A DNA stretch of 64,000 nucleotides, from positions 1 to 64,000 of the forward strand of contig NZ_CAJYGQ010000010.1 of assembly GCF_913773635.1 (NCBI RefSeq), written 5' to 3'. Under the pieces are notes generated by a model. That model was given only the letters and a program-made list of their open reading frames with translations, made no database searches and was not told the origin of the DNA. The position numbers were made by a program, and so were the translations under genes. Positions 30,550 through 64,000 of the stretch are shown here, piece after piece. This DNA comes from an uncultured Mucilaginibacter sp. Its GTDB lineage: Bacteria; Bacteroidota; Bacteroidia; Sphingobacteriales; Sphingobacteriaceae. Each line of letters begins with the position of its first letter. The stretch's first letter is position 1.

Positions 30550-31761
30550 ATGAGTAAGGTAGAAGGCTACATTAAAAACATGATCAAAGAATTATATTTT
30601 GGTCAGGCACTTTCTTGTACAGATATCAGCAGGAAAACGAACAAAAGTTTACCTGTGACTACTAAATTATTAAACGACTGTATTGAGGAAGGATTTGTTT
30701 TTGAAACCGGTTACGCTCCATCAACCGGCGGCCGGAGGGCTCAAACCTATTCTTTGAAAGCCGATGTTATCTATATAGTATCAGTTGCTATGGATCAGTT
30801 GGTTACCCGCCTGGTTATTATGGACGGCCAAAATAATCATGTAACAGCAATTCAAAAGCTTGATCTTGCTTTAAAGCAAGGACAGGAAGGTTTATTGGTG
30901 TTAACCAACGCAATAAGTCAGCTTATTAAAGATTCGGGAGTAAGTAAGGAAAAGATAGTTGGAATTGGAATAGGCATGCCCGGTTTTGTTGATATAGCCA
31001 AAGGAATAAATCATACTTTTTTAAATAATGATGGTCAAAGCATTACCTCATATATAAAGAAAGCCACCGGATTACCCGTTTTTCTTGATAACGATTCGAG
31101 CTTGATTGCACTGGCCGAACAAAAGTTTGGACACGCTCAAAATCAGCAAAATGTTATGGTAGTAAATATTGGCTGGGGTATAGGTTTAGGTATGCTTATT
31201 AATGGCCATTTGTTTCGTGGTGACAATGGGCTCGCTGGTGAGTTTAGCCACATTCCGGTTTTTATAAATAATAAGCTTTGTAGTTGCGGTAAAACAGGTT
31301 GTCTTGAAACGGAAGCATCCATGTTGCTCATTGTGGAAAAAGCTAAAAAAGAGATTGAAGGCGGACGCATGTCTATGCTAACGCAAATGAATTTAGGAAG
31401 CACTGAAGATGCAGCCAATGCCATCATGGAAGCAGCCCTCAAAGGTGACACTTTTGCGGTAGAACTTTTTTCTGAGGCCGGTTACAACATCGGTAGAGGA
31501 GCGGCAATACTTATTCACTTGCTTAATCCTAAGTTGATTGTGTTAAGCGGCCGGGGTGCGGCGGCAGGTAAGTTGTGGCTGGCTCCGGTTCAGCAGGCAA
31601 TAAACGAGCACTGTATTCCCAAAATAGCTGAGCATACTGAAGTTATAATATCCGAACTAGGTTACCATGCCGAGCTAATTGGCGCTGCAGCACTGGTGAT
31701 GGAACACTACAACGAGATAAGTCACCATATTCAAAGTCTACGTAAAGCAGTATTAAACTAA
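30550..31761 (+). CDS. ROK family transcriptional regulator
   Basis: The 403-residue protein starts with a winged helix (about 1-75, LSCTDISRKTNKSLPVTTKLLND then a wing with GGRRAQTYSLK) followed by a ROK sugar-kinase-like fold. The ROK zinc motif CSCGKTGCLE is present near residue 245, and GEFSHIPV supplies the zinc histidine. The ATP loop DxGxT of true kinases is missing (SVAMDQLVTRL instead), so it should sense sugar rather than phosphorylate it. It begins a run of same-strand genes, 33 bases before SusC, with no terminator between. It probably controls the mannose-glycan locus, like NagC or XylR relatives. Confidence 0.9.
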   Translation: MSKVEGYIKNMIKELYFGQALSCTDISRKTNKSLPVTTKLLNDCIEEGFVFETGYAPSTGGRRAQTYSLKADVIYIVSVAMDQLVTRLVIMDGQNNHVTAIQKLDLALKQGQEGLLVLTNAISQLIKDSGVSKEKIVGIGIGMPGFVDIAKGINHTFLNNDGQSITSYIKKATGLPVFLDNDSSLIALAEQKFGHAQNQQNVMVVNIGWGIGLGMLINGHLFRGDNGLAGEFSHIPVFINNKLCSCGKTGCLETEASMLLIVEKAKKEIEGGRMSMLTQMNLGSTEDAANAIMEAALKGDTFAVELFSEAGYNIGRGAAILIHLLNPKLIVLSGRGAAAGKLWLAPVQQAINEHCIPKIAEHTEVIISELGYHAELIGAAALVMEHYNEISHHIQSLRKAVLN

Positions 31762-37706: not shown

Positions 37707-39986
37707 ATGAGAAGAAATTTAATTGGGTTTTTACTATTAACCTTGTTGACCGGGGCATTGCAGACCAGCCAGGCCCAACAAAAAAAGTTAAAGCAAAAAC
37801 AAACAAGCCTTACGAAGTATGTTGATCCATATATTGGCACCGGGTTTCATGGACATGTTTTTCTTGGCGCTAACGTGCCATTTGGTGCTGTACAATTAGG
37901 GCCTACAAACATTTCGCAGGGATGGGACTGGTGTTCAGGTTACCATATTTCCGATTCTACAATCGTAGGATTTCAGCATACACACTTAAGCGGAACAGGT
38001 ATTGGAGACTTGGGAGACATATCTTTAATGCCAACAACCGGACCGATCAAAACCATGAAAGGAAGCATTAAAAATATGCAAAATGGTTATGTGTCTACCT
38101 TTAGCCATCAGCAGGAAAAAGTAAGCCCGGGCTATTATGCCGTCATGCTTAAACGTTATAATATTGGCGTGCGCTTAACGGCAACCCAAAGAGTAGGATT
38201 TCATGAATATACTTTTCCAAAATCAGATCAATCAAACATCATCATTGATCTACAAGAGGGCATAGCATGGGATGCACCTGTAAAAGCATCTATACAACAA
38301 ATTAATGACAGCACTATAGCAGGATATCGTTTCTCCAAAGGTTGGGCAAATGATCAGCGGGTTTTTTTTACCGCTGTTTTTTCTAGACCCATTAAAACAT
38401 TTGCCATATATGACAGCACAGCGGTCAAAACAAGCGAAACATATGAAGGCAGGAAGGTTAAAGGTGTCATAAGTTTTAGTACCGAAGCAGGCGAAAAGGT
38501 GCTGGTTAAAGTTGGTATATCGCCTGTAAGCGAAGCCAATGCTTTGGCGAATATTAAAGTGGAATTACCTGGCTGGAATTTCAACAACACCCTTAGTGCA
38601 GCTGATGCCGCCTGGAACAAAGAGCTACAGAAAGTACAGCTCAAAACCTCCAGTGAAACGAATAAACGAATTTTCTATACCGCTTTCTATCATACCATGA
38701 TAGCGCCATCTATTTTTAACGATAATAACGGCGACTACCGCGGTACTGATAAAAAAGTATATCAATCACCAAGCTTTACTAACCTTACTACCTTTTCCTT
38801 ATGGGATACCTATCGTGCCGCAAATCCGTTGTATACAATATTGCAACCTGAGCGGGTGAATGATATGGTTAACTCTATGCTGGCCATTTATAAACAGCAA
38901 GGGAAATTGCCTGTATGGCATTTAATGGGTAATGAAACAAATACAATGGTTGGTTACAGCGCGGTGCCAATTGTAGCAGATGCGTTTTTGAAGGGTTTTA
39001 ATGGCTTTGATAAAAAGTTGGCTTACGAGGCCGTTAAAGCATCTGCTATGCAAGATGCATCGGGCTTAAAGTTTGTTAAAGAACGTGGTTATATACCAGC
39101 AGATAGTTTAATAGAATCGGTAGCGATGGGGCTGGAGTATAGCCTTGCCGATTGGTCAATTGCTCAAATGGCAAAAAAAATGGTTAACGCCGCCGACTAT
39201 CAATATTTCAGTAAGCGCGGAAAGAACTACCAGAACTATTTTGATAAGCAAACCCATTTTATGCGAGGACGACTTTCTGAAAATACATGGCGTAGTCCAT
39301 TCAGCCCTTTTGAGTCGAGGCATCGTAAAGATGATTATACAGAGGGCAACGGATGGCAATATACCTGGCTGGTACCACAGGATGTTGAAGGTTTGATAGC
39401 GTTACAGGGCGGCGATAAGCCTTTTATCAATAAACTGGATTCTTTGTTTACTGTTAAGGGCAGCTTAGGAGAAGAAGGCTCACCTGATATATCGGGCTTA
39501 ATTGGTCAGTACGCGCATGGTAATGAGCCAAGTCACCATATTAGCTATTTGTATGCCTACGCAGGCCAGCCCTGGAAGACGGCTGAAAAGGTTAGATACA
39601 TTTTAAAGAACTTTTATACCGATAAAACTGATGGCATTATTGGCAACGAGGATGTAGGACAAATGTCGGCCTGGTACATCTTTTCATCATTAGGTTTATA
39701 TCCTGTAAACCCGGCTAACGGCACTTATGTATTTGGCAGTCCCTTGTTTGATGAAGCCACCATAAAACTGCCGGGTAACAAACTAATGCACTTTATAACA
39801 AAAAACAACAGCGATAAAAACATTTACATACAACGCGTAATATTAAATGGTAAAATTTATGCTAAATCCTACATCTCACATGCAGACTTGATGCGAGGCG
39901 GCAAACTGATTTTTGAGATGGGGAATAAGCCGAACTCAGACTGGGGTAAATTACCGCAGAACAGGCCATACTCCGAGAAGAAATAA
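37707..39986 (+). CDS. GH92 family exo-alpha-mannosidase, secreted
   Basis: The 759-residue protein has a signal peptide ending in QAQQ and the GH92 opening YVDPYIGTGFHGHVFLGANVPFGAVQLGP. The active-site segments include GYHISDSTIVGFQHTHLSGTG, WHLMGNETNTMVGYSAVPI and GNEDVGQMSAWYIFSSLGLYP, the last holding the catalytic carboxylates, and there is a calcium-dependent exo-mannosidase architecture. It removes terminal alpha-mannose, often alpha-1,2, from N-glycans or yeast mannan; linkage choice cannot be read from sequence. It is the only glycosidase of this locus. Confidence 0.94.
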   Translation: MRRNLIGFLLLTLLTGALQTSQAQQKKLKQKQTSLTKYVDPYIGTGFHGHVFLGANVPFGAVQLGPTNISQGWDWCSGYHISDSTIVGFQHTHLSGTGIGDLGDISLMPTTGPIKTMKGSIKNMQNGYVSTFSHQQEKVSPGYYAVMLKRYNIGVRLTATQRVGFHEYTFPKSDQSNIIIDLQEGIAWDAPVKASIQQINDSTIAGYRFSKGWANDQRVFFTAVFSRPIKTFAIYDSTAVKTSETYEGRKVKGVISFSTEAGEKVLVKVGISPVSEANALANIKVELPGWNFNNTLSAADAAWNKELQKVQLKTSSETNKRIFYTAFYHTMIAPSIFNDNNGDYRGTDKKVYQSPSFTNLTTFSLWDTYRAANPLYTILQPERVNDMVNSMLAIYKQQGKLPVWHLMGNETNTMVGYSAVPIVADAFLKGFNGFDKKLAYEAVKASAMQDASGLKFVKERGYIPADSLIESVAMGLEYSLADWSIAQMAKKMVNAADYQYFSKRGKNYQNYFDKQTHFMRGRLSENTWRSPFSPFESRHRKDDYTEGNGWQYTWLVPQDVEGLIALQGGDKPFINKLDSLFTVKGSLGEEGSPDISGLIGQYAHGNEPSHHISYLYAYAGQPWKTAEKVRYILKNFYTDKTDGIIGNEDVGQMSAWYIFSSLGLYPVNPANGTYVFGSPLFDEATIKLPGNKLMHFITKNNSDKNIYIQRVILNGKIYAKSYISHADLMRGGKLIFEMGNKPNSDWGKLPQNRPYSEKK

Positions 39987-58437: not shown

Positions 58438-59349
58438 ATGCTCAATTATAAAATTTACAGCTGCTACCTGCTTATACTGGCAATTATAGCGCTAACATGT
58501 AATAATGCTGTTGCAAGTAAGTTAGTAAGCCCACCGCGCCATAAGCAGCTAAAAAATATTGTTTTGATTGCCGGTACTAAAAGCCATGACCCTGGCGAAC
58601 ATGAGTATGTAAAAACGGTAAAGCTTATAAAGGTAATGCTTGATCGCTCAAATGTTAAAGGCATCAAAACAAGGTTTTATTTAAACGGCTGGCCGCCTGC
58701 AGATTCATTACTTAACAAGGCCGATTTAATTTTATTTGTGACTGATGGTGCAGATGGTATAAATTTCAAAGACTCACCATTTTTGACAACCGACCGTATG
58801 GCGGTTTTGCAACAGCAAGTAGATAGGGGATGTGGTATAGCATTACTACACTTTTCTACGTTTGCTGATTATGAAAATGGCCAAAAACTTTTGGAATGGG
58901 CCGGAGGATATTATGATTGGCAAGACTCTACGGGCGATAAACGTCATTATTCAGATTTAAAGGTTGCCAATGCACAGGTAACACTTGCCAGTCCAAAGCA
59001 CCCAATAAGTAATGGAGTAAAGTCTTTTAATATTAAGGATGAGTTTTATTACAATATGCGTTTTATGGCCGAACGAACGTATATTATTCCTGTACTTAAT
59101 GTGCCCTCGTTAGGAGGTAGTGAACCACTGGGCAATGTAGTTGCCTGGGCTTATAAGCGTAAAAAAGGCGGAAGGGCATTTTGCGCTACTATGGCACATT
59201 ACTATTCAAATTGGCATAATGAAAACTTTAGAAAAGTACTTTTAAACGGATTGATTTGGGCTGCGGGCATAAAAGTTCCAACTAATGGCATGAGTTCAGT
59301 TTTTTATACCGACGAAGAAGTTGCCAAATTTCTGCATACAGCCGATTGA
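58438..59349 (+). CDS. ThuA-like domain protein, secreted
   Basis: The 303-residue protein has a signal peptide (YLLILAIIALTCNNAVAS) and a class I glutamine-amidotransferase-like ThuA fold: KNIVLIAGTKSHDPGEHEYVKT at the start, ADLILFVTDGADG and GIALLHFSTF, and the later GRAFCATMAHYYSNWHN. ThuA proteins are linked with disaccharide and glycan use in several bacteria, but the reaction is not settled. The neighbouring secreted GH5 gene suggests a carbohydrate role. Confidence 0.85.
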   Translation: MLNYKIYSCYLLILAIIALTCNNAVASKLVSPPRHKQLKNIVLIAGTKSHDPGEHEYVKTVKLIKVMLDRSNVKGIKTRFYLNGWPPADSLLNKADLILFVTDGADGINFKDSPFLTTDRMAVLQQQVDRGCGIALLHFSTFADYENGQKLLEWAGGYYDWQDSTGDKRHYSDLKVANAQVTLASPKHPISNGVKSFNIKDEFYYNMRFMAERTYIIPVLNVPSLGGSEPLGNVVAWAYKRKKGGRAFCATMAHYYSNWHNENFRKVLLNGLIWAAGIKVPTNGMSSVFYTDEEVAKFLHTAD

Positions 59350-59359
59350 TCTGTCGGGG

Positions 59360-59372
59360 TAAAAAAGTATTA
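59360..59372 (+). promoter_or_regulatory. Motif TAAAAAAGTATTA, copy 1, upstream of GH5
   Basis: This 13-base sequence begins 10 bases after the ThuA stop and ends 72 bases before the GH5 ATG at 59445. The same sequence occurs at 60616 and 63933 and, with one change, at 63771, always in spacers. Confidence 0.6.
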
Positions 59373-59444
59373 TAAACTGGCAAAAAAAAGTAAACGCATT
59401 TTTAAAGATTTTCATTGCTTTGCATATCACCAATTCAAAGCTAA

Positions 59445-60518
59445 ATGAAAGTTTCTTACCTCGGGTTAACATTACTGGCGGTAGTGTGTAAAATCGGAGT
59501 GGCCATTGCCCAGCCTGGTTTGCAAAGCAACGCCATAAAAAAAGACTGGTGGCATATTGATGCCATAAAGCCCTATAAGCTTCCTGCCACTGCAAGTAAA
59601 ATGTCTTACATAAAAGTTCAGGGTAATTCTTTTGTTAACGATAAAGGCAAGGTAATCGTTTTTAAAGGGTTGTCCATTTCCGATCCCGATAAGCTGGTAA
59701 AAGACGGGCATTGGAACAAAAAGCATTTTGATGTAATCAAAAGCTGGGGCGCAAATTTAATACGTATCCCTGTACACCCTGTGGCCTATCATCAGCGTGG
59801 GGTAGAGGCTTACATCAAACTCTTAGACGAAGCCGTTAACTGGTGTTCAGAATTAGGTATTTATGTGTTGATTGACTGGCATGCTATTGGCAACCTGCAA
59901 ATGGAGGTGCTATCGCAAGACATGCATAAAACCACTAAAAGCGAAACATTTAACTTCTGGAGAAACATTGCAGAACATTACAAAGATATTCCAACCGTAG
60001 CATTTTACGAGTTGTTTAATGAGCCTACCACTTATGATGGGCAATACGGCACCGCCAGTTGGGATGGTTGGAAAACGCTAATGGAGCAAATGATTGATTT
60101 GATTTACGTTTACAACAAAAATGTAGTTCCGTTGGTTGCCGGCTTTAATTGGGCATATGATCTTACTCCCGTAAAAGACAACCCAATTGCCCGCCCCGGT
60201 ATTGGTTATGTAACACATCCTTACCCTGGTAAACGCGCTGTACCGCGTGAAGATAAATGGGAGCTGGACTTCGGCTTTGTGGCCGATAAATATCCGGTTA
60301 TAGCAACCGAGCTTGGCTTTATGCCCGGAGATGAAGATGAGAACTTGAAGGACGATGGCATTTACGGGCCGTCAATTATGAAATACTTTAATAAAAAAGG
60401 AATATCATGGGTGGTTTGGGTTTTTGACCCCGATTGGATACCACAAATGATTAAGAACTGGAATTATGAGCCTACATCACAAGGTAAGTTTTTTAGTGAT
60501 GTGATGAAAGGTAAGTAA
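59445..60518 (+). CDS. GH5 family cellulase-like glycosidase, secreted
   Basis: The 357-residue protein has a signal peptide ending in AIAQ and a GH5 TIM barrel. The acid/base is E193 in YELFNEPTTY and the nucleophile E289 in PVIATELGFM; other family positions are R107 in NLIRIPVHP and the IDWHA loop. It cleaves beta-glucan or beta-mannan internally; the exact family member cannot be judged. It has its own copy of the 13-base motif and a terminator after it, so it may be a single-gene unit. Confidence 0.92.
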   Translation: MKVSYLGLTLLAVVCKIGVAIAQPGLQSNAIKKDWWHIDAIKPYKLPATASKMSYIKVQGNSFVNDKGKVIVFKGLSISDPDKLVKDGHWNKKHFDVIKSWGANLIRIPVHPVAYHQRGVEAYIKLLDEAVNWCSELGIYVLIDWHAIGNLQMEVLSQDMHKTTKSETFNFWRNIAEHYKDIPTVAFYELFNEPTTYDGQYGTASWDGWKTLMEQMIDLIYVYNKNVVPLVAGFNWAYDLTPVKDNPIARPGIGYVTHPYPGKRAVPREDKWELDFGFVADKYPVIATELGFMPGDEDENLKDDGIYGPSIMKYFNKKGISWVVWVFDPDWIPQMIKNWNYEPTSQGKFFSDVMKGK

Positions 60519-60546
60519 TATGTTGGTTATACATTTTTTTGGTTTG

Positions 60547-60577
60547 GCCGCCGGTAATTTACCGGCGGCTTTTTTTG
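60547..60577 (+). terminator. Terminator after the GH5 gene
   Basis: A perfect 9-bp stem GCCGCCGGT / ACCGGCGGC with loop AATTT (60547-60569) is followed by seven T. Confidence 0.92.
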
Positions 60578-60615
60578 TTGATATGTTTACGACTCAAAAA
60601 ACAATATTATTAAGC

Positions 60616-60628
60616 TAAAAAAGTATTA
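60616..60628 (+). promoter_or_regulatory. Motif TAAAAAAGTATTA, copy 2, upstream of the isomerase operon
   Basis: The motif is identical to copy 1 and is preceded by AAGC as in copy 3. It lies 118 bases before the ATG at 60747 and after the GH5 terminator, in the promoter region of the three-gene operon. Confidence 0.6.
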
Positions 60629-60746
60629 GTGTCATTTTGCTAATAATCACACATTTACGTATACCTAAAAGGCGCTTATTTTTCTCATTTATCAAGTGTC
60701 TGCTTACATCTAAACCAAGTTATTTAACCAATTAATAAATCAAATT

Positions 60747-61613
60747 ATGAATGTTGGAATTGATAGTTACTGTTACCACCGGCTTTTTGGCGAGGTGTAT
60801 CCCGGCCAGGATAGGCCCGAAAAAGAGCTTTCATTTGATGCTTTTCTAAAAGATATAGGCAAGCTGGATATAAAGGGCATATCACTGGAGTCATGTTTTA
60901 TTCCCCGGTTTAATAAAGAATACTTACTTGATGTAAAACAGCAACTTGATGATAACGATTTGGATAGGGTTTACGCGTGGGGGCACCCTGACGGTTTGGA
61001 AGGTGGTAAAAATGAAGCTGCATTTGATGAAATGCTTGAGCACATTGAGTACGCCAGTTATATAGGTGCAAATGTAATGCGTGTAGTAGGCAGCAGCCTT
61101 CAGTTCAGGTTTGAAGATCATACTCCACAGCTTGAAAAGTTAAGCCACATGTTTACTGAAGCCGCTAAAGTTGCCGCACGTTACAATGTAAAGCTGGCGG
61201 TGGAAAATCACATTGATTACAACTCCGACGAAATACTTCAATTAATTAAAAACGTTAACTCGCCATATTTCGGAGTTAATTTTGATACCGGCAATTTTTT
61301 AAGAGTACTTGATGATCCTATTCAAGCTATGGAGAAGTTGGCACCTTATGTTTTGGCTACTCATATTAAGGATCTTAAACCGGTTAAAGGCGTGCCTGTA
61401 AATGAATGGTATTTCTTTTCATGCGTACCAACGGGCGAGGGTTTAATAGATAATGCCCGGCTTGCTCAAATTTTAAAGCAGCACAATTACAAAGGCTTCC
61501 TGGCAGTTGAAATTGACTTTTTACACCCCGATTATACCAATCAGGAAGAAGACGTTGTAAAAGAGAGTGTTGCTGAATTATGGAAAATAGCCGGAAGATT
61601 AGAGTATGCTTAA
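60747..61613 (+). CDS. Sugar phosphate isomerase/epimerase family protein (AP-endonuclease-2-like TIM barrel)
   Basis: The 288-residue protein is a xylose-isomerase-like TIM barrel. It starts MNVGIDSYCYHRLFG, and metal ligands are probable in KLAVENHIDYNS (E and N), the GVNFDTGNFLR loop (D), HIKDLKPVKG (H, D) and VEIDFLHPD (E). The family includes isomerases and epimerases of free or keto-sugars. No signal peptide is present, so it acts in the cytoplasm. It overlaps the next gene by eight bases (61606-61613) and shares the operon with a dehydrogenase and a dioxygenase. Confidence 0.88.
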   Translation: MNVGIDSYCYHRLFGEVYPGQDRPEKELSFDAFLKDIGKLDIKGISLESCFIPRFNKEYLLDVKQQLDDNDLDRVYAWGHPDGLEGGKNEAAFDEMLEHIEYASYIGANVMRVVGSSLQFRFEDHTPQLEKLSHMFTEAAKVAARYNVKLAVENHIDYNSDEILQLIKNVNSPYFGVNFDTGNFLRVLDDPIQAMEKLAPYVLATHIKDLKPVKGVPVNEWYFFSCVPTGEGLIDNARLAQILKQHNYKGFLAVEIDFLHPDYTNQEEDVVKESVAELWKIAGRLEYA

Positions 61614-62769
61614 AACATTGAACGTAGGTATTGTAGGCTATAAATTTATGGGCAGGGCGCACAGTAACGCCTGGCTTAAAGCACCGTTGTTTTTTGATGT
61701 TGCGGCAAAACCTATTCTGAAGGTTGCCTGCGGAAGACACGAACCCTCACTGAAAGAATTTGCCGAGCGCTGGGGTTGGCAGGAAACGCAAACTGATTGG
61801 AAAAAACTTATCAGCAGACCTGATATTGATATAGTTGATATTGCCCTGCCACAGCACCTGCATTATGAAATTGCCATTGCTGCAGCTAAAGAAGGTAAGC
61901 ATATTTTTTGCGAAAAGCCGTTGGCCATGAGCGTTAAGCAAGCCGAGGAAATGCTGCGCGTGTGTGAAGATAACAAAGTAATACACTATTTAAATCACAA
62001 CTATCGGCGTGTGCCTGCTGTAGCATTGGCAAAAAAAATGATTGATGATGGTCTGCTGGGTAGGCTGTTTCACTGGCGCGCTGCCTACCAGCAAGATTGG
62101 ATAGTTGATCCTGAGTTTCCACTTACATGGCAATTGCGCCAGGAAACTGCTCAGGCGGGTCCGCACTGGGATTTAAATTCGCATTGCGTTGATTTGGGGC
62201 ATTATCTGATAGGGCCAGTTGATTCGGTGACAGCAATGAGCACAAACTTTATTACCGAACGGCCTTTAGCCGATGAAGCAAGTACAGGAAATTTACAGGC
62301 CGAAGTGAAAGGTAGCGAACGCGGACAGGTAACCGTTGAAGACGCTGCTTTAATGATTGTAAAATTTGCAAACGGTGTTATGGGTTCATTTGAAGCCACA
62401 CGTTTTGCAACAGGTCGTAAAAACAAGCTTTCATTTGAAATATACGGAAGCAAAGGGAGCCTGACATTTGATCTAGAGCGAATGAATGAACTCATGTTTT
62501 TCTCCTCAAATGATGCTGGCGATACACAAGGCTTCCGAAAAATTATTGCTACTGACCAACAGCACCCATACATTAAAAGCTGGTGGCCACCCGGCCATAT
62601 AATTGGCTACGAGCATTCCTTTGTTCACGCGGTAGTTGATTTCATTGATGCCATTGAGAAAAAGAAGCAGGTAACTCCCAATTTTAATGACGGACTCAAT
62701 ATCATGAAGGTGCTTGAAGCAGGACTGCTATCGGCTCAAACCAAACAACAAATAACTTTGAATATATAG
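61606..62769 (+). CDS. Gfo/Idh/MocA family oxidoreductase
   Basis: The 387-residue protein has the NAD(P)-binding opening VGIVGYKFMGRAHSNAWLKA and the family EKPLAMS motif with its lysine (FCEKPLAMSVKQAEEML, near residue 105). The C-terminal half contains GPHWDLNSHCVDLGHYLIG, where the conserved D and H assist catalysis. It oxidises or reduces a sugar or inositol. It overlaps the isomerase gene, so the two products probably act in succession. Confidence 0.92.
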   Translation: MLKTLNVGIVGYKFMGRAHSNAWLKAPLFFDVAAKPILKVACGRHEPSLKEFAERWGWQETQTDWKKLISRPDIDIVDIALPQHLHYEIAIAAAKEGKHIFCEKPLAMSVKQAEEMLRVCEDNKVIHYLNHNYRRVPAVALAKKMIDDGLLGRLFHWRAAYQQDWIVDPEFPLTWQLRQETAQAGPHWDLNSHCVDLGHYLIGPVDSVTAMSTNFITERPLADEASTGNLQAEVKGSERGQVTVEDAALMIVKFANGVMGSFEATRFATGRKNKLSFEIYGSKGSLTFDLERMNELMFFSSNDAGDTQGFRKIIATDQQHPYIKSWWPPGHIIGYEHSFVHAVVDFIDAIEKKKQVTPNFNDGLNIMKVLEAGLLSAQTKQQITLNI

Positions 62770-62772
62770 CGT

Positions 62773-63666
62773 ATGCAAACCCTTAAAGAGAAGTTTTTAC
62801 AAGATGGATACGTAATAATAGACGTATTAACGCAACAAGAGATTGACGACTTCAGGCAAATAATGGATGCCCTTATCAGTCCTCAGGTAAAAGCCGGTAA
62901 TAATGAAAAGAAGAGTTCCTCATTTCAGCACTTAGGCGATGAACTGAGCGATTTTGGTAAAGAAGCCCGACAGTATTATTTCCATTTGCTAACAAAGCCG
63001 GGTACCGAACCAATACATCACGCTTTTCATCACCCGGTAATTTTAAAAGCCGTTGAAGAGATTATTGGTCCTAACCTTATCGTTAATAACGCCTCAATAC
63101 TTGCAGCTAATGAAGGTACGGAGTATTCATTAGGCTGGCATCGGGATATTATCCAAATACCTCAGGATGAAATTGCCGATTGGCTTTTCTCACCGGAGCG
63201 TTTTCATAACAGCGTTCAAATCAATCTCCCGCTGGTTGATGAAAATTCTTTATGGATTGTTCCTGCAAGTCATAACCGCCCAAACACAGAAGCGGAAAAT
63301 GCAGCATTTAATGGATCTAAGCACTATGCACCAGTAGGAGCTGAAATGCCTGGAGGTGTACCTGTTAAGTTGAAAGCTGGGCAGGCAGTGCTGTATAATA
63401 ATAACCTTATACACAGAGGGTTTACTGAGAAAATGACTATACCACGTCGCACCTTGCACATGGGGTATCATAGCGCTGCATATCCTCCAACCTGGCATTT
63501 TTATCTACTAAACGGAGATCTGCTTACTCCCCAATACCTGGAAACTTTAAGCCCCACAATGCGCACAATGATGCAAGAGTATCTTGAGTGCCGTGCCCAA
63601 TATCCCAACATGGCCGAAACCTGGAAATGGGAGTATAATTTTCCTGAAAAAGAATATACCGCTTAG
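62773..63666 (+). CDS. Phytanoyl-CoA dioxygenase (PhyH)-like iron/2-oxoglutarate oxygenase
   Basis: The 297-residue protein has the Fe(II) triad H123 and D125 in LGWHRDIIQIP and H214 in LIHRGFTEK, and R225 or R226 in IPRRTLHM as the 2-oxoglutarate partner. Length and fold fit PhyH. The family hydroxylates varied substrates, not only lipids. It starts three bases after the dehydrogenase stop codon, so it belongs to that operon; the oxygenase may hydroxylate or oxidatively cleave the same sugar-derived molecule. Confidence 0.88.
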   Translation: MQTLKEKFLQDGYVIIDVLTQQEIDDFRQIMDALISPQVKAGNNEKKSSSFQHLGDELSDFGKEARQYYFHLLTKPGTEPIHHAFHHPVILKAVEEIIGPNLIVNNASILAANEGTEYSLGWHRDIIQIPQDEIADWLFSPERFHNSVQINLPLVDENSLWIVPASHNRPNTEAENAAFNGSKHYAPVGAEMPGGVPVKLKAGQAVLYNNNLIHRGFTEKMTIPRRTLHMGYHSAAYPPTWHFYLLNGDLLTPQYLETLSPTMRTMMQEYLECRAQYPNMAETWKWEYNFPEKEYTA

Positions 63667-63672
63667 TATTTG

Positions 63673-63702
63673 AGGCGGATGCACAGCTCTATGCATCCGC
63701 CT
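63673..63702 (+). terminator. Hairpin after the PhyH-like gene
   Basis: AGGCGGATGCA (63673-63683) and TGCATCCGCCT (63692-63702) pair perfectly around an 8-base loop, just after the stop codon. The following T-run is short, so termination may be partial. Confidence 0.75.
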
Positions 63703-63770
63703 TGAAAATTTAAGTCGGCTTAATTTCAAATGATGGTTATCTAATAGGTTGCAAATATTAAAATTCAAGC

Positions 63771-63783
63771 TAAAAAAGTATCA
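63771..63783 (+). promoter_or_regulatory. Motif TAAAAAAGTATCA, copy 3 (one mismatch)
   Basis: It differs from the other copies only at position 12 (C for T) and is preceded by AAGC like copy 2. Confidence 0.5.
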
Positions 63784-63932
63784 TTAAAGTAAAGCTTGAT
63801 TACGGAATTTTTAAATTTAAATAATCGCTCAATATTAAACTTATAAGTTGTCAGCACTTTTATTGCCAATTTATTTTGTAACCGTTATTGAAATTTTAAA
63901 CCGCACTTATTGAATATGCTACGTATTTTAGA

Positions 63933-63945
63933 TAAAAAAGTATTA
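63933..63945 (+). promoter_or_regulatory. Motif TAAAAAAGTATTA, copy 4, near the right edge
   Basis: It is identical to copies 1 and 2, 162 bases after copy 3 and 55 bases before the window end. Confidence 0.55.
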
Positions 63946-64000
63946 GAAATGCGTATAAAAAACTTCCATTTTTAGTGATTATAAACCAAACGCTTTTTTG

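Follow-up and report, generated by a model that had tools for sequence, protein, structure and literature searches.

A 13-base motif, TAAAAAAGTATTA, recurs in the spacers of a 64,000-nucleotide stretch of DNA (the window: positions 1 to 64,000 of contig NZ_CAJYGQ010000010.1, here C10) from an uncultured Mucilaginibacter sp. of the Bacteroidota. From a comparison of this stretch with the remainder of the genome and with related genomes, we conclude that the 13-mer is, judging from sequence, very probably the operator core of a regulator of the AraC/XylS family, and that the motif marks the local regulon of one glycan-utilisation locus. The regulator, a protein of 294 aa, is encoded on the minus strand at C10:77759-78643, between the third and the fourth of the gene units that follow copies of the motif. 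This position is 13.8 kb beyond the window, and because the window stops at 64000, the regulator was invisible to an earlier description made from the window alone (the sequence-only reading). The argument draws on the computed clustering and strand of the copies, their linkage to the regulator gene, their spacing from a promoter box and their conservation, from which we infer binding by the regulator, activation and an inducer.

The motif occurs exactly at 59360, 60616 and 63933 and with one mismatch at 63771, all on the plus strand and all in spacers, just as the sequence-only reading had listed them. With up to two mismatches allowed, the window holds 18 matches to the 13-mer against 8.61 expected, a number that was reached in 0 of 100 shuffles. 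The same reading had reported few other near matches, among them one in a glycoside hydrolase family 92 (GH92) gene at 38748. This coding match exists, but it starts at 38750 and has two mismatches, and a further one-mismatch copy at 31011, on the minus strand within a predicted open reading frame (ORF), had been missed. The flanking AAGC, which had been put forward as part of the site, is present at just two of the four window sites and has to be given up; what is constant is a G two bases 5′ of the 13-mer (four of four).

We extended the scan to the whole genome (4,052,947 bases in 13 contigs, 95% complete; contig C10 starts with the window). The exact 13-mer is found nine times (8 forward, 1 reverse), compared with three copies of the reversed word. 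Rather than being spread as a random background, five of these nine lie before operons within the 28.6 kb of C10:59360-87946 (at 59360, 60616, 63933, 78739 and 87934), all on the plus strand. The binomial probability of at least five of nine in 28.6 kb is 2.1e-9, or about 3e-7 after correction for the 142 windows of this length. Together with the one-mismatch copy at 63771, the locus has six sites, and each of these copies sits in a spacer ahead of plus-strand genes. The remaining four exact copies are on three other contigs, three inside long ORFs and one between long ORFs without the G, and they amount to about the background number, as judged by the three reversed-word copies. Those reversed-word copies also illustrate that single words of this kind do arise by chance in A/T-rich DNA, but chance as the explanation of the motif is refuted by the clustering, strand, conservation and spacing of its copies. 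At up to one mismatch, the genome as a whole shows no excess (80 matches versus 74 for the control), which argues against a genome-wide regulon. Thus, the possible regulon of the sequence-only reading gains support from the copies upstream of operons, the linkage to a regulator and the constant spacing from a −7 box, but it is local to one locus. When the site is combined with the −7 pattern described below, this genome contains five perfect matches, every one of them within the locus; at up to two mismatches the count is 18, versus 5 for the control. The refined site reads RGnTAAAAwAGTATtA; its G played no part in site selection.

The motif is conserved together with the regulator gene. Relatives of the regulator were collected from 44 loci; counts given for 42 loci omit L042, in which the regulator is 100% identical, and L080, a near-copy of L045. 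Of the 42 ortholog loci, 37 have a site (two mismatches or fewer) in the 600 bp 5′ of the regulator gene, directed away from that gene. The same search gave 2/42 on the other strand, 6/42 with reversed words and 71/840 in shuffled spacers. The commonest form in the relatives is TAAAATAGTATTA, and the flank is conserved as well, with G at −2 in 36 and A or G at −3 in 34 of the 37 sites; the G is also present at all six sites of the Mucilaginibacter locus. Across L044-L085 (42 loci including L080; 795,867 bases), 40 matches with at most one mismatch compare with 15 for the reversed word. We scanned 151 genomes of the family: a regulator relative (E ≤1e-70) is present in 61 and a match to the motif with its −7 box in 57. 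Of the 91 such matches, 52 are no more than 30 kb from a regulator relative, whereas about 0.6 would be expected by arithmetic. Without this genome and its near-twin G185, the count is 43 of 81.

Gene order in other loci indicates to which gene the site belongs. We fetched 20 kb around the regulator genes of 15 further loci. Seven of these, picked for having no good outward-strand site upstream of the regulator, have the regulator and a symporter gene in the same direction; in all seven the site is between the two, on the symporter's strand, which assigns it to the target operon rather than to the promoter of the regulator gene itself. A −7 box (at most one mismatch) accompanies it in six of the seven. 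In two further fetched loci, of family f12, the site is between the regulator and a GH26 gene. In L075, where the regulator's spacer has no site, one was expected before the SusC gene with which its operon begins, beyond the locus, and was found 65 bp upstream of the SusC ORF with a perfect TACTTTTG. A wider search found regulator homologs in 42 of 395 genomes, of which only those assigned loci were inspected. In f12, which is a different family and whose homologs are 44-50% identical, 11 of the 14 inspected keep TTGATAAAATAATATTA with TATCTTTG; all 11 come from one genus (regulators 44-46% identical).

Some matches in the relatives have other surroundings. A strong site at L254:11004 (score 20.0), on the strand opposite to the regulator ORF, overlaps the end of that ORF and has no good −7 box at the usual place. 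L077:9995-11816 and L079:9995-11853 hold paired AraC-type genes; the second shares about 32% identity with the query, and some 2-3 kb further along another gene is preceded by copies of the motif. Near-identical matches to the motif with −7 box occur at G148:C60:5802, G153:C5:3450 and G188:C39:2783, in genomes with no regulator relative at E 1e-70, and possibly represent a conserved coding stretch.

In domain scans of the 22 annotated proteins between 58438 and 90272, a DNA-binding domain was found in the AraC-type protein only (for SusC and SusD the scan used NCBIfam alone, the symporter was covered in part, and the 101-aa ORF 63896-64201 was outside the scan). Its C-terminus contains a double helix-turn-helix (PF12833, E 2.7e-23; PF00165, E 8.8e-12), HTH_18 and HTH_AraC being the only domains found. 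An AlphaFold model has a beta-strand domain at residues 41-95 (six strands), followed by helices and a seven-helix C-terminal domain, and the Foldseek list for this model includes Rns, RhaR, AraC, MarA and RamA. By Foldseek and phmmer, the C-terminal part resembles DNA-binding domains of the AraC family, including those in RamA and SoxS transcription complexes and in MarA on DNA. The N-terminal part has weak Foldseek matches to the sensor domains of AraC and RhaR (E about 1e-3), and there is no Pfam cupin match in the N-terminus. The predicted fold is a putative cupin-like domain joined to an AraC DNA-binding domain; the sugar-responsive activators RhaS/RhaR and AraC of Escherichia coli combine a cupin-like sensor with a double helix-turn-helix. 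Their operators are asymmetric and lie beside or over the −35/−33 region, a layout that the asymmetry and position of the present site would fit. The protein differs from RhaS, scoring 70.1 bits with the NCBIfam RhaS equivalog NF010028 (curated cut-off 288), and its operator sequence, targets and the promoter type of its phylum differ too. Its DNA-binding domain places it in AraC/XylS; it is classed neither as RhaS nor as a hybrid two-component system (HTCS). Its two putative recognition helices vary little across 13 sequences, which is compatible with a constant operator but no proof of one. The nearest named relative, Mucilaginibacter aquatilis HME9299 (L042), has the identical regulator noted above, and its other locus proteins are 89-100% identical.

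The distance of the site from a promoter box is constant. Flavobacterial sigma-A promoters are reported to carry TAnnTTTG at −12 to −5 (PMC9723704). We examined 65 sites chosen by motif score alone, with identical stretches counted once and related species included. TAnnTTTG with at most one mismatch starts at +34/+35 from the 13-mer in 38 of the 65, while other offsets have a mean of 0.87 and a maximum of 7. None of the 65 sites has TTTG, the one element tested, at +0 to +18, which is the place of the −33 element. A −7 box at +34/+35 places the operator at about −48 to −34. The −7 boxes found in this genome are weaker (NAnnTTT), with one perfect box, TACTTTTG, after 87934. The motif is upstream of the predicted start, and for this reason an RNA element, one of the options left by the sequence-only reading, is disfavoured; the asymmetric binder that it also considered is favoured by the constant −7 distance and by the retention of the motif with one AraC-type regulator. 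The constant spacing and the missing TTTG could further suggest that the motif is itself a promoter element, either an extended or variant −33 box or the site of an alternative sigma factor. We regard this as improbable. The −7 box matches the house-keeping type described in PMC9723704, so that an alternative sigma factor is not needed; in addition, the motif follows the loci of one regulator, one-mismatch copies show no genome-wide excess, and 25 of 87 promoters have an upstream partner copy that a core promoter box would not need.

These partner copies came from 87 promoters that were selected with the −7 filter, include related species and were not used for the claim on −7 spacing. A second site on the same strand lies 60-130 bp upstream in the 25 promoters, versus one on the opposite strand and one in the reversed control; the operator pairs are real. 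Many tandem spacings are 74-122 bp, bunching near 76, 98, 110 and 121 (for example L051:9816/9937, L071:9847/9955, L173 and L177), hinting at whole helical turns in what is a weak test (Monte Carlo p 0.027-0.038 on 22 spacings, with clades collapsed by eye). Tandem, widely spaced sites, 67 or 77 bp apart, are also described for SusR of Bacteroides (PMC3878776). In the Mucilaginibacter genome, only the SusC promoter has a second site, the pair 63771/63933 being 162 bp apart; at the other five of the six sites there is no second site of score at least 9 within 260 bp upstream.

We consider it likely that the regulator activates rather than represses. The putative cupin-like N-terminal domain would probably sense a hemicellulose-derived sugar, such as a beta-manno- or gluco-oligosaccharide, and the C-terminal double helix-turn-helix would bind the asymmetric site at about −48 to −34, in place of a −33 element. 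The bound regulator could then recruit house-keeping RNA polymerase to a weak promoter with a TAnnTTTG-like −7 box, a class II activation step proposed by analogy with known AraC-family activators. Five units would be switched on in this way: GH5; isomerase/dehydrogenase/PhyH; SusC/SusD/glycan-binding/GH5/esterase/GH78; symporter/GH130/pyrroloquinoline quinone (PQQ)-dehydrogenase and others; and another GH5. E. coli AraC works by switching between repression and activation through looping between sites, and the same-strand tandem sites, many 74-122 bp apart in the relatives and 162 bp apart before SusC here, could indicate that this regulator, paired with the same operator, represses or toggles in a similar manner. 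This is the less likely mode, since a proximal site at about −48 to −34 without TTTG at −33 is the usual layout for activation, a second upstream site at 60-130 bp is missing from 62 of the 87 promoters, the SusC promoter is the only one here that has a partner, and the helical phasing is weakly supported.

Another candidate for the controller of the motif is an HTCS instead of a one-component AraC protein. HTCS regulons of Bacteroides likewise control polysaccharide utilisation loci (PULs), in the same phylum and through AraC-type DNA-binding domains (PMC3878776), and for the B. ovatus beta-mannan PUL the predicted controller is an HTCS that binds manno-oligosaccharides (PMC5217682). An HTCS consists of a periplasmic sensor, a membrane histidine kinase and a receiver fused to an AraC domain, unlike the 294-aa one-component protein found here. 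We judge control by an HTCS to be very improbable: none was found among the 22 annotated locus proteins (a search for regulators that covered this locus and not the remaining genome), and it is the gene for the one-component AraC protein that the motif accompanies. Moreover, HTCS sites in Bacteroides are described as direct repeats about 21 bp apart (PMC3878776), which are not seen here, where single asymmetric sites sometimes have a second one further upstream.

Several observations weigh against the pairing of site and regulator or against parts of the proposed mechanism. In the 151 genomes, the total of 91 matches to the site with its −7 pattern is only slightly above that of the reversed control (76, a hand tally with positions not located); it is the location of the matches that is non-random, and not their total. 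Six of the 15 fetched loci (L249, L250 and L253-L256; more distant homologs, 45-62% identical) have no well-placed site, and three of them, L250, L255 and L256, carry symporter, GH26 or GH130 genes yet no properly placed site. The site is also absent from three of the 14 inspected f12 homologs, and L244, one of the seven co-directional loci, has no −7 box at +34/+35. In L062, the site precedes a GH26/epimerase unit, and the symporter/GH130 operon has a weak match only (score 8.6, with a perfect −7 box). With regard to the promoters, the 65 sites include related species and are not independent, five of the six sites here differ from TAnnTTTG at two positions of the box at +34 or +37, and three of them have a closer −7 match elsewhere (offsets +55, +16/+61 and +41). 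The AlphaFold model was built from 13 aligned sequences and has a mean pLDDT (predicted local distance difference test score) of 72.8, with residues 1-33 below 50. Finally, the nearly invariant recognition helices cannot tell loci with a site from those without: L076, L077 and L079 have most of the same residues although no site stands next to their regulator genes.

The substrate is the least certain step. In 59 loci, the regulator is accompanied by GH130 (45), a symporter (44), an AGE-type epimerase (35), GH26 (28) and GH27 (19), and the enzymes seen with it in relatives are those reported for beta-mannan PULs (PMC9860051). In the locus studied here, the GH130 protein is closest to the mannosylglucose phosphorylase 3WAS (E 4.2e-173), and the symporter has an SSF domain. 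This genome, at 95% completeness, has no match to the epimerase family PF07221 and a single GH26, on another contig (C13:224056). The GH5 enzymes of the locus resemble cellulases and endoglucanases (two of the three GH5 were compared with solved structures), and its surface glycan-binding proteins (SGBPs) are of the xyloglucan-binding type. The gene content thus points to glucomannan or a related beta-glucan as a candidate substrate. A tentative history would be that an ancient regulator-operator pair, present across families of this Bacteroidota class and associated with beta-mannan genes in many relatives, was taken over in Mucilaginibacter for a larger, multi-operon locus and a different hemicellulose, with operator pairs separated by whole helical turns allowing DNA looping at some promoters.

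A related arrangement is known from the marine Muricauda sp. MAR_2010_75, whose beta-mannan PUL contains an expressed AraC-type regulator, FG28_RS02325, together with GH26, GH130 and a symporter, and was upregulated on the mannans tested (PMC9860051). Like our locus, it has an AraC-type regulator amid GH130 and symporter genes (with GH26 in our relatives), and FG28_RS02325 may be a homolog of the regulator; that account, in the portion covered, names no operator. Among the literature matches listed, drawn from a search largely outside subscription publications, there is no published operator for this group of regulators, and the word TAAAATAGTATTA had no match in a search that did not include the window's own word form. 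The type of switch is familiar, and we found no description of this site or gene set, so the sequence-only reading's term 'undescribed' holds within the publications searched. The publications on PUL control in Bacteroidota covered here are mainly about HTCSs and SusR. For a one-component switch of the AraC type, which occurs in several families of this phylum, the present analysis names the operator, the regulator, the geometry of the promoter and the predicted target genes. Start sites, binding and the rewiring of hemicellulose regulons become directly testable, and sugar-responsive promoters could be constructed for use in these bacteria.

The features of the locus are collected in the table. 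ORFs were mapped on 80 kb of the contig from 60001 and named by Pfam and NCBIfam; the spacing of the genes suggests that each group forms one operon.

Table. Predicted operators, −7-like boxes and target genes on contig C10 (offsets are counted from the 13-mer)
Feature	Position	Strand	Remarks
Operator (G-n-13-mer) before GH5 gene	59358-59372	+	Exact 13-mer; weakest exact site for spacing (2 mismatches to site + −7 pattern)
−7-like box CATTTTTA	59397-59404	+	GH5 site; 3 bases beyond the usual offset
GH5 glycoside hydrolase, predicted target gene	59445-60518	+	Pfam PF00150; nearest solved relatives are GH5 cellulase/beta-glycosidase entries, e.g. 8bn7, 4hty, 5a8m
Operator before isomerase/dehydrogenase/PhyH operon	60614-60628	+	0 mismatches to site + −7 pattern
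−7-like box CACATTTA	60650-60657	+	+34; 2 mismatches to TAnnTTTG
Xylose-isomerase-like TIM barrel protein, first gene of predicted target operon	60747-61613	+	Pfam PF01261
GFO/IDH/MocA oxidoreductase, predicted target operon	61606-62769	+	Pfam PF01408
PhyH-type dioxygenase, predicted target operon	62773-63666	+	Pfam PF05721
Distal operator TAAAAAAGTATCA before SusC operon	63769-63783	+	162 bp upstream of proximal operator
Proximal operator before SusC/SusD operon	63931-63945	+	First ORF of the operon starts at 64202, past the window end
−7-like box CATTTTTA	63967-63974	+	+34; 2 mismatches to TAnnTTTG
SusC, SusD, two surface glycan-binding proteins, GDSL lipase, GH5, SASA esterase, GH78	64202-77757	+	Two motif copies upstream
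Symporter, GH130, PQQ dehydrogenase, TIM barrel, DUF3863	78969-86417	+	Copy 78739 upstream
Another GH5	from 88035	+	Copy 87934 upstream

Three minor points concern the locus itself. An HTCS-like direct repeat of 21-22 bp, suggested by a second AAAAAAGTA after 59360, found no support at the other sites and was rejected. A gene for a ThuA-like secreted protein (58438-59349) stands directly 5′ of the first site, with no motif copy of up to two mismatches ahead of it, and is probably outside the regulon. At C10:69253-71202 there are two neighbouring SGBP_B (xyloglucan-binding) genes, for which the BLAST map of a sister metagenome-assembled genome (L043) has one match only.

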